NCBI RefSeq assembly: GCF_940143175.1
Contig: NZ_OW659496.1
Coordinates: forward strand, 1,674,001-1,738,000
Length of the DNA stretch: 64,000 bases
Direction: 5' to 3'
Source of the DNA: Erysipelothrix amsterdamensis
GTDB taxonomy: Bacteria; Bacillota_I; Bacilli_A; Erysipelotrichales; Erysipelotrichaceae
Position numbers and translations under genes: made by a program. Below are positions 18,844 to 47,474 of this stretch, piece by piece. Below the pieces are notes generated by a model. It made no database searches. It saw nothing but the letters and a program-made list of their open reading frames with translations, and was not told the DNA's origin. Each line of letters starts with the position of its first letter. Within the stretch, counting starts at the first letter, position 1.

Positions 18844-18920
18844 TGGCGCGCCCGACAGAAGTCGAATCCATAACCTCTTGAGCCGTAATCAAGTGCTCTA
18901 TCCAGTTGAGCTACGGGCGC
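18844..18920 (-). tRNA. tRNA-Arg (ACG)
   Basis: 77 nt, anticodon loop TTACGGC, discriminator G, CCA encoded. With A34 read as inosine it decodes CGT, CGC and CGA, the Arg codons seen in the leader region at 43243-43478. Confidence 0.97.
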
Positions 18921-42535: not shown

Positions 42536-43117
42536 ATGAAAATAATCGCAATCACAGGTTCCGTAGCAGGACGTAAGACACGCGTCGCTTTGGACTATGT
42601 TATCCAAGAAATAGCCAAACACAATCACACCATTGACACGGAAATTATTAATATCGGAGATTATGATCTTCAGTTTAGCGATGGACGTTCTGTTGACCAA
42701 TATAATTCGGATACTCAGTATGTTATTAATTCAATTATGGAAGCAGATGCACTCATCGTTGGAACACCAACCTATCAGACTTCTATACCTGGCGCACTAA
42801 AAAATATTTTCGACTTATTACCCATGCATGCCTTGGTTGATAAGAGTGCCGGCATTGTGGTTACTGCAGGATCACCAAAGTATTTTTTAATGGCAGAACA
42901 ACAACTTAAACCCATTCTATCTTACATGGGAGCACGCATTGTTCAGAAATATGTTTTTATCGAAGATTGTGATTTTGATGGCCTTGAAATAAAGAATGAT
43001 AATATTTTAGACCGCTTGCGAAACTTAGGTGATGACGTCATTTGTTCAGTAGAACATAGGACTTGGGTACAAAATCATCCGATGAAGAAAGATCAATTCC
43101 CTTATAACGATAAATAA
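42536..43117 (+). CDS. NAD(P)H-dependent FMN reductase family protein
   Basis: A 193-residue flavodoxin-like protein: phosphate-binding ITGSVAGRKTRVALDY at the N-terminus and GTPTYQTSIPGALKNIFDLLP near residue 78, the SsuE/MsuE/ArsH-type pattern. It probably reduces FMN or uses it with NAD(P)H. GGAGTG precedes the ATG. It lies before the T-box leader and is likely a separate transcription unit. Confidence 0.85.
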   Translation: MKIIAITGSVAGRKTRVALDYVIQEIAKHNHTIDTEIINIGDYDLQFSDGRSVDQYNSDTQYVINSIMEADALIVGTPTYQTSIPGALKNIFDLLPMHALVDKSAGIVVTAGSPKYFLMAEQQLKPILSYMGARIVQKYVFIEDCDFDGLEIKNDNILDRLRNLGDDVICSVEHRTWVQNHPMKKDQFPYNDK

Positions 43118-43122
43118 AAGTA

Positions 43123-43151
43123 TTGACAAAGATTTGATAGTACGATATTAT
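43123..43151 (+). promoter_or_regulatory. Promoter of the T-box-controlled transporter operon
   Basis: TTGACA (43123-43128), 17 bases, TATTAT (43146-43151), immediately upstream of the T-box leader. Confidence 0.85.
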
Positions 43152-43164
43152 TTCACTTAAATCG

Positions 43165-43392
43165 CAGAACAAGAGAGTAAACATTTGGATATCGATAGCG
43201 AATTAGGGATGGTGGAAGCCTAATGGATGAAATATGTTGAACCGCACTTGGGAGATGTTTATCTGAACAAAGAGTAGGATAAACCGCAAACCTAGCGTTA
43301 CAGGAGAGAGGTCATATGAATAACATATGGCAATTAGAGTGGTACCGCGTTTAACACGTCTCTAGATATACACTATCTAGGGACGTTTTTTT
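43165..43392 (+). promoter_or_regulatory. T-box riboswitch leader
   Basis: Stem I has base pairs CAAG/CTTG (43170-43173 with 43247-43250), the AGTA-type S-turn strand AGAGTA (43174-43179), a second helix AACAT/ATGTT and an apical TTAGG-loop-CCTAA. The T-box AGAGTGGTACCGCG is at 43336-43349, and the 12-bp terminator stem (43357-43385) is followed by seven T. The 3' strand of the specifier loop is GAACCGCA (43239-43246). By usual placement, just before the final A, the specifier is CGC (Arg), but CCG (Pro) is one base away. Uncharged tRNA would open the terminator and switch on the ABC importer. Confidence 0.92.
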
Positions 43393-43427
43393 GTTCCTAG
43401 ATTCAAATAAAAGCGAGGAGAATTTTT

Positions 43428-43478
43428 ATGGGAATCAAACGACGACGTGACTTCGCAAAGAGCACAAACCAAACATAG
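43428..43478 (+). CDS. Arg-rich 16-codon leader peptide ORF
   Basis: Encodes MGIKRRRDFAKSTNQT, with GAGGAG eight bases before the ATG. Codons 5-7 are CGA CGA CGT, three consecutive arginines all read by the tRNA-Arg(ACG) found at 18844-18920. It lies between the T-box terminator and the lipoprotein gene, 27 bases before the latter's start. The position and codons resemble an amino-acid-sensing leader, which would add ribosome-based control to the T-box. Whether it is translated is inference. Confidence 0.5.
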   Translation: MGIKRRRDFAKSTNQT

Positions 43479-43505
43479 AGCGAACATCACAAGGAGAGAA
43501 ACAAA

Positions 43506-44327
43506 ATGAAAAAAACATTTATAGTAGCTTGCGTAACATTATTATTTTTAAGCGGTTGTGGAAAGAAGGATACAACCGTAACGAAACTTGAAGCAATCAA
43601 ATCAAAAGGTGAAATTGTTTTAGTAACATCACCTGACTATGCACCCTATGAATTCATCGATGCAACAAAAACAGGTCAAGATCAATATGTAGGTGCGGAC
43701 ATCGAACTCGCAAAATTTATTGCGAATGAAATTGGTGTAGATCTCGTTATTAAAGCGATGAGCTTTGGTGATATTGCCTCCGCAGTATCACTTGGAAAAT
43801 TTGATATGGGTATTGCGGGATTTACCTTTAATGAAGAACGTGCAGAACAAGTTGATTTCAGTAATACTTATGATACGACGGAGTCCACATGCCAAGGTTT
43901 TCTTGTAACGAAAGAAAAAGAAGCAACACTTAATACAATTGATGATTTAAAAACTGCGAAGGTTGCCGTTCAAAATGGTTCACTCCCTCAAACTTACGTG
44001 GAGACAGAACTTCCAGAAGCAACAATGCAACTCGTTAATACATTGGATGATGCTGTCCTTCAGTTGAATGTTGGAAAAGTGGATGCGATTGCTGCATCCT
44101 GTGCATCAGGTGAAGGATTTACCTTAAATAATAAAAATCTTGTTGTAAGTAAAGTTAAATTCGCAACAATCGATGATAACGGTACAAAAGTCATCTTAGA
44201 AAAAGGTCAAGAAGATCTTATGGATGAAGTAAATAAAGCAATTGCGAAAGCTGTAGAACTTGATTTGTATAAACAATGGCTTGCTGATGCTACAAGTATT
44301 GCAAAACAATTAGGAGCGATTGACTAA
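43506..44327 (+). CDS. Amino-acid-binding lipoprotein of ABC importer
   Basis: A 273-residue polar-amino-acid-binding protein. The lipobox LSGC puts the lipidated Cys at residue 18. The mature domain reads GEIVLVTSPDYAPYEFID, then VGADIELAKFIANEIG and FDMGIAGFTFNEERAEQVDFS, characteristic of solute-binding family 3 (ArtJ/GlnH/HisJ). The upstream T-box with likely Arg specifier and Arg-rich leader ORF point to arginine or a related basic amino acid; the protein alone does not prove this. AAGGAGAG precedes the start. Confidence 0.92.
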   Translation: MKKTFIVACVTLLFLSGCGKKDTTVTKLEAIKSKGEIVLVTSPDYAPYEFIDATKTGQDQYVGADIELAKFIANEIGVDLVIKAMSFGDIASAVSLGKFDMGIAGFTFNEERAEQVDFSNTYDTTESTCQGFLVTKEKEATLNTIDDLKTAKVAVQNGSLPQTYVETELPEATMQLVNTLDDAVLQLNVGKVDAIAASCASGEGFTLNNKNLVVSKVKFATIDDNGTKVILEKGQEDLMDEVNKAIAKAVELDLYKQWLADATSIAKQLGAID

Positions 44328-44328
44328 G

Positions 44329-44991
44329 ATGTTTCAAGATATATTAAAGCTCATTAATCGCTATGGACATGTGTATCTTAAGGGAGCTTGGGGTACACTG
44401 ACCATTTCTGTTGTTGTTGTATTAATTAGTACCCTACTTGGTGCCTTTCTCGCAATGGGGAAGATGTCGAAATTTAAGCCTTTAAAAACAATTATTAATG
44501 TCTATATCGAAGTAATTCGTGGAACACCACTACTACTTCAACTAAGTTTATTTTATTTTTTAGGCTCTGAGTACATCTCCACATCCGTTCCGGATGTAGG
44601 ATGGATCATGGTTGCTTTGATTATTAATTCGAGTGCCTATGTAGCGGAAATCTTCCGTGCTGGTATTCAAGCTGTTGATAAAGGTCAATTTGAAGCCGCA
44701 AAAAGTCTTGGTATTTCAAATGCTAATATGATGAAGAAGATTATCTTCCCACAAGCGATTAAGAATATCTTACCTGCTTTAGGGAATGAATTTATTACAA
44801 TGATAAAAGAAACATCTTTAGCATCGGTATTCTTTGTAAACAACTTGATGACTTCGGAATCAATTGTCTCAAGTGCAACCCACTTAAAACTACCGTCTTT
44901 GATGATTGTAGGGGTTATTTACTTTATAATGACTTTCTCAACATCGAAATTAATCTCCGCATTTGAACGAAAGGTGGCCCTCAATGACTAA
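44329..44991 (+). CDS. Amino-acid ABC transporter permease
   Basis: A 220-residue permease of the His/Glu/Gln/Arg type with about five TM segments, the N-terminal [35 protein letters not shown], and the EAA loop [24 protein letters not shown]. The ATG at 44329 is preferred over an in-frame TTG at 44320. It probably forms a homodimer in the membrane with the ATPase encoded next. Confidence 0.93.
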
Positions 44992-45718
44992 ACCGCTACT
45001 TGAAATCAAAAACATACATAAAGCATATGGAGACTTATCCGTGCTTCAAGGAATTAATGAAACAATTACCCAGGGTGAAGTTGTTTCGATTATTGGTCCT
45101 TCGGGTTCAGGAAAGTCAACGTTGCTACGGTGCTTAAATTTACTTGAAACACCATGTTCAGGTAGCATTATCTTTGATGGTGTAGCATTAGAGCCAGATC
45201 ATAAAAACTTAGATAAGCTACGTCAAGAAATTGGGATGGTTTTCCAACATTTTAATGTTTTCCCCAATTTAACGGTTTTGGAAAACATTACCCTCGCACC
45301 AACTCTAGAAAAAGGGATGTCTAAAGATGAAGCAAATACTTTAGGTTTATCGTTACTTGATAAGGTAGGGCTTAAGGATAAGGCACATGAATTTCCACGT
45401 AAGTTATCTGGAGGACAAAAGCAACGTCTTGCGATTGTCCGTGCGCTTGCAATGCAACCTCAAGTTATGCTCTTTGATGAACCAACATCTGCATTAGATC
45501 CAGAAATGGTTAAAGATGTACTTGAAGTTATTAAAGATCTTGCGGTAAGTGGGATGACAATTGTAATTGTGACTCACGAGATGAATTTCGCAAAAGAAAT
45601 CAGTGATCGTGTGTTATTTATGGATGGTGGTGTTATCTGCGAACAGGGAACACCTGAAGCAATCTTTGATAACCCGACACATCCTCGTACTATTGAGTTT
45701 CTAAGTAAAGTTTTATAA
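44984..45718 (+). CDS. Amino-acid ABC transporter ATP-binding protein
   Basis: A 244-residue GlnQ/HisP-type ATPase: Walker [26 protein letters not shown], signature LSGGQKQR and Walker [16 protein letters not shown]. The start at 44984 has GGTGG before it and overlaps the permease stop by 8 bases. Twenty bases after its stop the second IS copy begins, inside what was the operon's terminator hairpin. Confidence 0.93.
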
Positions 45719-45810: not shown

Positions 45811-46515
45811 ATGGGGAGAAAGAATAAATATCCAGCCGAAATAAAAGAACAAGCAATTAATGAATATTTGAATGGCATAAAAGGTGCACCAGAAATAGCT
45901 GAAGAATTATCTATTGATTCTAGTACATTACGTAGTTGGGTGAAAAAGTATCAAACTTATGGTATTGAAGTTTTTTCAGATAAAGATCGAAACAAAAGTT
46001 ATTCGAAAGAGCTCAAGGAATCCGCAATTAGGGATTATCTTGAAGGCGCAGGTTCTCTTAAAGATATTAGTATTAAATATGGTATAAGTTCCCATGAGGT
46101 TTTGCGCGGATGGATAAAAAAGTATAATAGACTTGAAACTATAAAGGATTACGATCCTAAAGGAGAAGTCTATATGACAAAAGGTAGAAAAACAACAATT
46201 GAGGAGCGTCAGGAAATTGTCGCATATTGTATTGAACATGACTACGATTATAAGGGGACTGCTGAGCGCTATGAACTTTCTTATGCTCAGGTTTATCAGT
46301 GGGTGAAAAAGTATAACGAATTGGGAGATGATGGTCTTCTTGATAAACGTGGCAAGCGAAAACAAGAAGATCAACTTAGTAATGAAGAACGTTTAGAACG
46401 TAAAGTAAAACTACTTGAAAGACAACTCGAACTGAAAGAACGCGAGAACATTCTATTAAAAAAAGTGAAGGAAATCGAAAGGGGGCGATATTCTCCAAAG
46501 CAAAACAAGAAGTAA
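45811..46515 (+). CDS. IS3-family transposase OrfA (copy 2)
   Basis: Same 234-residue protein as copy 1, with three helix-turn-helix units and a C-terminal coiled coil. The slippery A7 is at 46458-46464. Confidence 0.95.
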   Translation: MGRKNKYPAEIKEQAINEYLNGIKGAPEIAEELSIDSSTLRSWVKKYQTYGIEVFSDKDRNKSYSKELKESAIRDYLEGAGSLKDISIKYGISSHEVLRGWIKKYNRLETIKDYDPKGEVYMTKGRKTTIEERQEIVAYCIEHDYDYKGTAERYELSYAQVYQWVKKYNELGDDGLLDKRGKRKQEDQLSNEERLERKVKLLERQLELKERENILLKKVKEIERGRYSPKQNKK

Positions 46516-46526
46516 AGTATCTCGCA

Positions 46527-47474
46527 GTGCAGGAACTACATCATAAACATGGCTGGAGTATTCAGTGGATGTGTAAGGTACTTAAAATCGCAAGAAGTAG
46601 TTATTATAAATGGACGCATCGTGTTGAAACAAGCAATGAAATTGAAAATCATGAGCTTTGCAATCTCATTCTTGATTATGATGAACTATTTGGACATATC
46701 TTAGGCTATCGACGCATGACGGATTGGATCAATGAGTTGAATAGCGTTCAATATAACTCGAAGAGGATTCATAGACTCATGAAGATGCTAGGGGTGAAAT
46801 CAGTGATTCGTCAAAAGTCTAAAAAATATTCACGAAGCACTCCTGAAATCACAGCTGAAAATATTTTAAATCGAAATTTCTTTGCCGCAAAACCGAATGA
46901 AAAATGGCTGACAGACGTCACAGAATTTAAGATTAAAGGTTCAAGTAAGAAACTATATCTCAGTGCGATTATTGATCTTTATGATTTAAGTGTTGTGGCG
47001 TATCAAATAAGTGATCGGAACAATAATCAACTTGTGTTTGATACTTATCATAAAGCTATCGCGAGATATCCAGAGGCAAAACCTTTATTTCACAGTGACC
47101 GCGGATTCCAATACACAAGTAGGGCATTTAGGAAACAGCTAGAAGATCAAGGAGTGATGCAAAGTATGTCTAGAGTGGGACATTGTATTGATAATGGTCC
47201 TATGGAAGGATTTTGGGGAACAATCAAATCAGAAATGTACTACCCTAATGAATTCAGTACAAGAAGCGAATTGAAGAAAGCAATTGAAGTGTATATTGAT
47301 TTTTATAACAACAAGAGACTTCAGAAACGCTTCAAAAACAAAACACCAATGATGGTTCGAACTGAAGCGCTAGGAACAGAGACACCTGTAGTCTACGCGA
47401 TTCCAACTAACAAGAAGATTGAAGCTTACTGGTCAAACATTAGAGAAAAACAAATGCAGTCACTTGTAGCATAA
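46527..47474 (+). CDS. IS3-family transposase OrfB, DDE integrase domain (copy 2)
   Basis: Same 315-residue integrase as copy 1 with an intact DDE triad. Open upstream to the slippery site, so OrfAB fusion is expected. Confidence 0.95.
   Translation: MQELHHKHGWSIQWMCKVLKIARSSYYKWTHRVETSNEIENHELCNLILDYDELFGHILGYRRMTDWINELNSVQYNSKRIHRLMKMLGVKSVIRQKSKKYSRSTPEITAENILNRNFFAAKPNEKWLTDVTEFKIKGSSKKLYLSAIIDLYDLSVVAYQISDRNNNQLVFDTYHKAIARYPEAKPLFHSDRGFQYTSRAFRKQLEDQGVMQSMSRVGHCIDNGPMEGFWGTIKSEMYYPNEFSTRSELKKAIEVYIDFYNNKRLQKRFKNKTPMMVRTEALGTETPVVYAIPTNKKIEAYWSNIREKQMQSLVA

Follow-up and report, generated by a model that had tools for sequence, protein, structure and literature searches.

In Bacillus subtilis, the at operon is controlled by a Trp T-box and by a leader peptide in which tRNA-dependent ribosome stalling sets the translation of rtpA (Chen and Yanofsky, Science 301:211, 2003, and Mol Cell 13:703, 2004, as cited in PMC11255114). 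This is the one system joining a T-box to a leader peptide that was found in the open-licence literature. In the mechanism proposed for its leader peptide, rtpLP, the ribosome terminating at the leader stop covers the Shine-Dalgarno (SD) sequence of rtpA (rtpA/yczA, anti-TRAP). Besides, tandem T-boxes occur on amino-acid transporter operons of the artQ-glnQ-artP type in Bacillota (PMC12452182), and in Clostridioides difficile argG and argH (argininosuccinate synthase and lyase), as well as a gene for an amino-acid SBP, are preceded by T-boxes (PMC11477304). Arginine goes unmentioned in the main text of a 2008 T-box survey that stressed transporters (PMC2494555). Concerning T-boxes with Arg leader peptides, or leaders of Erysipelotrichales in general, the open-licence papers yielded only the His-leader attenuators of Erysipelotrichales and other Firmicutes (PMC9413887), an earlier description elsewhere being possible.

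The window considered here, a stretch of 64,000 nucleotides from Erysipelothrix amsterdamensis (contig NZ_OW659496.1, positions 1,674,001 to 1,738,000), contains a probable promoter, a T-box and a short leader ORF lying between an FMN-reductase gene on one side and an ABC transporter operon on the other, with the following features:

43123..43151 (+): probable sigma-A promoter TTGACA-17-TATTAT, by consensus match only (11/12 consensus positions)
43156..43366 (+): T-box leader of the tRNA-Arg type, Rfam RF00230 by cmscan, 128 bits (gathering score 93), full model length (1-219)
43243..43245 (+): specifier codon CGC (Arg), from the covariance alignment; CGC/CGU kept in relatives, flanking base variable
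43340..43343 (+): T-box bulge TGGT, from the sequence; its last base stands opposite G73 of tRNA-Arg(ACG), a U-G wobble
43356..43392 (+): intrinsic terminator of the T-box, a 13-pair stem (43356-43386) and a T-run
43415..43420 (+): Shine-Dalgarno GAGGAG of the leader ORF, from the sequence
43428..43478 (+): leader ORF of 16 codons, MGIKRRRDFAKSTNQT, with CGA CGA CGT at 43440-43448, from the sequence; conserved in relatives
43491..43498 (+): Shine-Dalgarno of the lipoprotein gene, AAGGAGAG, from the sequence
43506..44327 (+): solute-binding lipoprotein, SBP family 3 (Pfam PF00497; NCBIfam)
44329..44991 (+): polar amino-acid ABC permease (Pfam PF00528, TIGR01726)
44984..45718 (+): polar amino-acid ABC ATPase, GlnQ/ArtP-like (Pfam PF00005)
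18844..18920 (-): tRNA-Arg(ACG) with G73 (ARAGORN; sequence), which both sensors would read

The leader ORF (ATG GGA ATC AAA CGA CGA CGT ... TAG), with its good ribosome site, stands where the preliminary description had placed it, between the T-box terminator and the lipoprotein gene. When positions 43060-43560 were scanned for terminators, the sole terminator-like site lay upstream of the leader ORF and none behind it; thus, the terminator/antiterminator downstream of the leader that characterizes his/trp-type attenuators is lacking in the window. Just past the terminator U-run, TTCCTAGAT (43394-43402) is complementary to the 3' arm of the terminator, a pairing kept with altered letters in three relatives (L019, L020 and L022), and this segment may form a hairpin once the polymerase reads through or pair with the SD of the lipoprotein gene. 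Regarding the operon, the closest NCBIfam subfamily of the lipoprotein is Lys/Arg/Orn-binding, with a score below the cut-off of that subfamily, so that arginine as substrate is suggested by the T-box and not by the protein alone, and the operon is a probable arginine uptake system. Directly 3' of it, an IS3-like two-ORF transposase (45811-47474) was read from the translations.

The specifier had been read as CGC (Arg), with CCG as the competing possibility, and the RF00230 covariance alignment bears this reading out, having CGC in the specifier columns within the context GAA-C-CGC-A-C. The motif in relatives is GAA-(C/G/A)-CGC-A or GAA-CGU-G, and by the strict pattern CGC or CGU is the specifier of 55/57 leader loci (49 CGC, 6 CGU), the remaining two being L093, with CGC then U, and L128, on a cut contig. 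A proline specifier (CCG) is ruled out, because the preceding base can be C, G or A, whereas CGC itself, replaced by CGU in a second group of T-boxes, is retained. Histidine (CAC) was also rejected, as the second group has CGTG at this place, the specifier columns of the alignment are CGC/CGU and the genes are Arg-related. This second kind of Arg T-box, with the CGU specifier followed by G and preceded by one base fewer, is present in L028, L059, L060, L068, L110-L113 and L137.

The genome has tRNA-Arg anticodons ACG, CCG, TCT and CCT and a TadA homologue above the cut-off, so that tRNA-Arg(ICG) is expected to decode CGU, CGC and CGA alike. The tRNA-Arg(ACG) noted earlier in the window was recovered by ARAGORN, and its discriminator is G73; consequently, the bulge UGGU can pair with it by a wobble only, as had been pointed out. 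The first T-box of L019 and L020, two relatives with tandem T-boxes, carries UGGC, a full match to G73. We infer that the T-box specifier and the leader codons are read by this same tRNA-Arg(ACG).

The preliminary description had made its reading depend on the conservation of the Arg codons, and well beyond the genus the Arg-rich ORF is indeed kept in Arg-related contexts, with its frame preserved. Among 62 T-box loci gathered by lipoprotein homology without regard to the ORF, 34 have an SD-started ORF with an early Arg-Arg pair, compared to 1.8 expected from dinucleotide shuffles, these loci sharing descent, so that locus counts are not independent. A chance ORF is ruled out by this excess and by the in-frame CGACGA. 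Within the genus, MGIKRRRDFAK... is kept in G002, G007 and E. tonsillarum, and G012 has MKTTQLTRRRCGF followed by a stop; a single-protein query of genome contigs gave one further Erysipelothrix locus only, that of E. tonsillarum, plus distant Clostridia. Leader peptides of the family include MESSGRR, MVRRRKMRFI, MEQNSKKRRNCA and MKKRRWSDV, each ending at a stop, as well as MERRRLDY.... For a genome survey, a DNA pattern made of the T-box, the T-run and CGACGA only was used, and it was found in 73/294 Erysipelotrichales genomes, covering 19/78 genera and both families, with 0 matches for the reversed-pattern control. The same pattern gave no real leader in 335 other Bacilli genomes, where the single match is a pheS-like coding start, or in 348 genomes from the phylum of a Clostridia MAG, where 3 matches, coding starts resembling ileS, valS and another enzyme gene, stand beside 1 control match.

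The genes behind the T-box and leader encode family-3 SBPs, argininosuccinate synthase (L107-L113, L135 and L173, in both families of the order) and OppA-type (oligopeptide-binding) SBPs (L121 and L133), all of them predicted arginine genes. As the combination recurs order-wide before such genes, these bacteria seem to sense the arginine supply twice. None of the 11 further T-boxes in this genome has such an ORF, their genes beginning too close behind the bulge to fit one, and in six relatives, with 30 T-box loci examined, it is the Arg T-boxes that are followed by the CGA CGA leader. Two of these 30 loci (L179 and L195), both before tyrS, have SD-started ORFs with an Arg pair, MASRRKIYEFY and MLRIYRRSKSG, which contain Tyr codons and are probably background. 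No clear CGA CGA leader was found at transporter loci without a T-box, and many transporter loci with an Arg T-box have no leader ORF, above all those encoding SBP-permease fusions. Where such a fusion is the first gene (open frame >500 aa), the Arg T-box is present and the leader ORF occurs in none (L020-L022, L025, L027, L028, L054, L055, L058-L060, L067-L069 and L072).

In a tree of 38 SBPs, at least 3-4 changes of the leader label are needed, and leaders are seen on both sides of deep branches, suggesting that the leader is probably old and was repeatedly lost. In Erysipelothrix, the sister to the leader clade carries a tandem pair of Arg T-boxes before the same transporter, without a leader ORF (992-1447 in L019, 1001-1454 in L020 and 999-1455 in L022), with the exception of L018, one species with a single T-box. 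The leader ORF is absent from 6/6 tandem T-box loci. In these sister species, the second sensor thus appears to be swapped for another kind, a T-box in place of the leader ORF.

As for the reading frame, in 41 of 43 distinct pattern loci the nearest SD-preceded ATG/GTG shares its frame with CGACGA, and in the other two an in-frame ATG exists, one without an SD and one slightly farther upstream. The Arg pair is also preserved through the synonymous codons CGC, CGT, AGA and AGG, which is consistent with the leader ORF being read as protein. The codon choice is strongly biased, as CGA makes up 102/108 codons (94%) at the first two leader Arg positions and 60/66 leader Arg codons in the set that was not selected for CGACGA, compared to 0/130 Arg codons in the genes behind the leader and 17% in the long ORFs of the window. 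In Salmonella, CGA is poorly read by tRNA-Arg(ICG), and Arg-Arg pairs containing CGA stall the his leader (PMC4046918). Thus, the leader uses the weakest codon of this tRNA, and the T-box uses CGC/CGU.

Three features are constant across the family, namely the strength of the SD, the occurrence of an Arg pair within codons 2-8 and the distance from this pair to the gene, the first Arg codon lying at a median of 65 nt from the gene ATG (IQR 61-69, minimum 40). The leader stop, located in 54 loci, falls more than 45 nt upstream of the gene in 14, 4-45 nt upstream in 17, across the ATG in 10 and beyond it in 13, positions that are near the shuffled expectation, and the stop-to-SD spacing is not conserved. 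In 10 loci (L101, L103, L029, L133 and others) the leader is fused in frame to the gene, so that the lipoprotein could also be read in an N-terminally extended form. In addition, the leader frame is stop-free up to the gene in 24/56 loci, compared to 20/112 when the other two frames are pooled, which hints mildly that the passage of ribosomes over the gene's site may matter.

These features point to a mechanism, to which we give a probability of about 0.7, in which the T-box at the level of transcription and the leader peptide at the level of translation would both sense the charging of tRNA-Arg(ICG), with the gene start spared by a stalled ribosome. Uncharged tRNA-Arg would pair with the T-box at its CGC specifier and TGGT bulge, letting RNA polymerase pass the terminator, and the read-through mRNA would then carry the leader ORF, with its strong ribosome site and 2-3 CGA/CGT codons soon after the start. 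When Arg-tRNA is short, the ribosome would stall at these codons and leave the lipoprotein start, about 65 nt further downstream, free; when it is plentiful, ribosomes would run towards or over the gene's ribosome site, lowering its translation. The outcome would be an AND gate, in which leaky read-through is kept from translation. The sequences establish the anatomy, the Arg specifier, the conservation and the codon choice, and the translation of the ORF, the binding of the tRNA and the positive sign of stalling are presumed by this mechanism, the positive sign being the least certain. Short leaders, the 10 in-frame fusions, the many Arg T-box loci without the ORF and the wobble-only bulge stand against it, and in about a quarter of the loci the stop lies more than 45 nt before the gene, immediately or shortly after the Arg pair, so that transit could not cover the gene's site. 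A more specific form, tentative and at slightly under even odds, is that of an order-wide Arg regulon in which tRNA-Arg(ICG) is read with opposite codons, one of its tighter partners, CGC or CGU, catching the uncharged tRNA as specifier, and CGA, its weakest partner and missing from the genes behind, forming a translated stall site about 65 nt before the gene. In this form the position of the stalled ribosome itself would act, with neither a conserved stop nor a hairpin sequestering the SD.

Other explanations of the leader have to be weighed against the same observations. If the ORF were untranslated, CGACGA could act through base pairing of the RNA, one possible partner being TCGTC in the antiterminator or terminator of the T-box, GACGA being complementary to the TCGTC found in many of these T-boxes; nonetheless, the strict frame with an SD-preceded start, the ATG/GTG starts throughout and the synonymous replacements, which break the pairing, make this very improbable. 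Classical translational attenuation, where the ribosome site of the gene pairs with sequence following the Arg codons unless a stalled ribosome blocks this, fits Erysipelothrix, as a hairpin begins there directly behind CGA CGA CGT and ends one base before the gene's SD, which is partly paired, TTCCT behind the terminator can pair with this SD, and CTTCT in G012 pairs with the SD itself. However, the hairpin and the partial pairing are seen in Erysipelothrix alone: over 53 loci, pairing of the gene's SD does not exceed that in shuffled sequences (unpaired 0.79 compared to 0.78), and the folding of the leader regions likewise resembles that of shuffled sequences (mean z 0.09). A common attenuator hairpin is therefore not supported, and attenuation is improbable as the general explanation, at best being a detail of this lineage. 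An equally low probability is assigned to occlusion of the gene's SD by a ribosome terminating at the leader stop when Arg is plentiful, as proposed for rtpLP. The stop in the window ends 13 nt ahead of the lipoprotein gene's SD, as this explanation would have it, and the at operon is the only T-box and leader-peptide case found; however, stops in the family range from more than 45 nt upstream to inside the gene or in frame with it, near the shuffled expectation, and with the stop position free across the family, occlusion cannot be the shared mechanism.

The main rival to the stalling and transit reading is the stabilisation of the mRNA, in which a ribosome stalled on the CGA codons near the leader start during Arg shortage would protect the read-through transcript against 5' exonuclease. 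This would be an inducible counterpart of the erm leaders and stabilising Shine-Dalgarno sites known from Gram-positive bacteria. It explains the kept SD, start and early Arg pair alongside the free stop and downstream structure, but accounts neither for the narrow distance between the Arg codons and the gene nor for leader frames that reach the gene without a stop more often than the other frames do; we regard it as unlikely, with roughly one chance in four. Sensing of tRNA-Arg by the T-box and the leader peptide, with the gene start spared by the stalled ribosome, is hence retained as the main reading. If the position of the stalled ribosome acts without a conserved stop or hairpin, this kind of leader-peptide control would be previously undescribed.

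Compared to the described systems, the double control of one transporter, called unusual in the preliminary description, is unusual indeed but not unprecedented, since the at operon has it according to the work cited in PMC11255114. Like the present leaders, the His-leader attenuators sense through leader peptides rich in an amino acid and occur in Erysipelotrichales, but they have the terminator behind the leader and no T-box, whereas here the terminator precedes the leader and a T-box is present. The T-boxes of C. difficile precede the same types of genes (argG, argH and SBP), and no mention of a leader ORF was found in PMC11477304. In the artQ-glnQ-artP type operons, two tRNA sensors likewise act on an ABC transporter, the second being a T-box there and a leader ORF here. 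The closest likeness is to the at operon, which shares the order of a T-box, a terminator and a short SD-bearing ORF with repeated codons for the same amino acid before the first gene, as well as the transcriptional and translational sensing of one tRNA in tandem, which for the present loci is deduced from the sequence. Unlike the at operon, which responds to Trp and precedes a regulator gene, the arrangement described here involves Arg, transporter genes and argG and is spread over an order; its rare CGA codons stand near the start, its two sensors differ in codon (CGC/CGU compared to CGA) and its leader stop keeps no fixed place close to the gene's SD. Because the codon shifts between the T-box (CGC/CGU) and the leader (CGA), it can be tested directly how codon choice tunes a tRNA sensor, and the question of why the same tRNA should be sensed twice becomes a comparative one with many natural replicates. 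The logic of a T-box followed by a leader peptide would thus extend to another amino acid, in at least 19 genera and before three kinds of genes, and it is best read as an order-wide arginine counterpart of the at operon.
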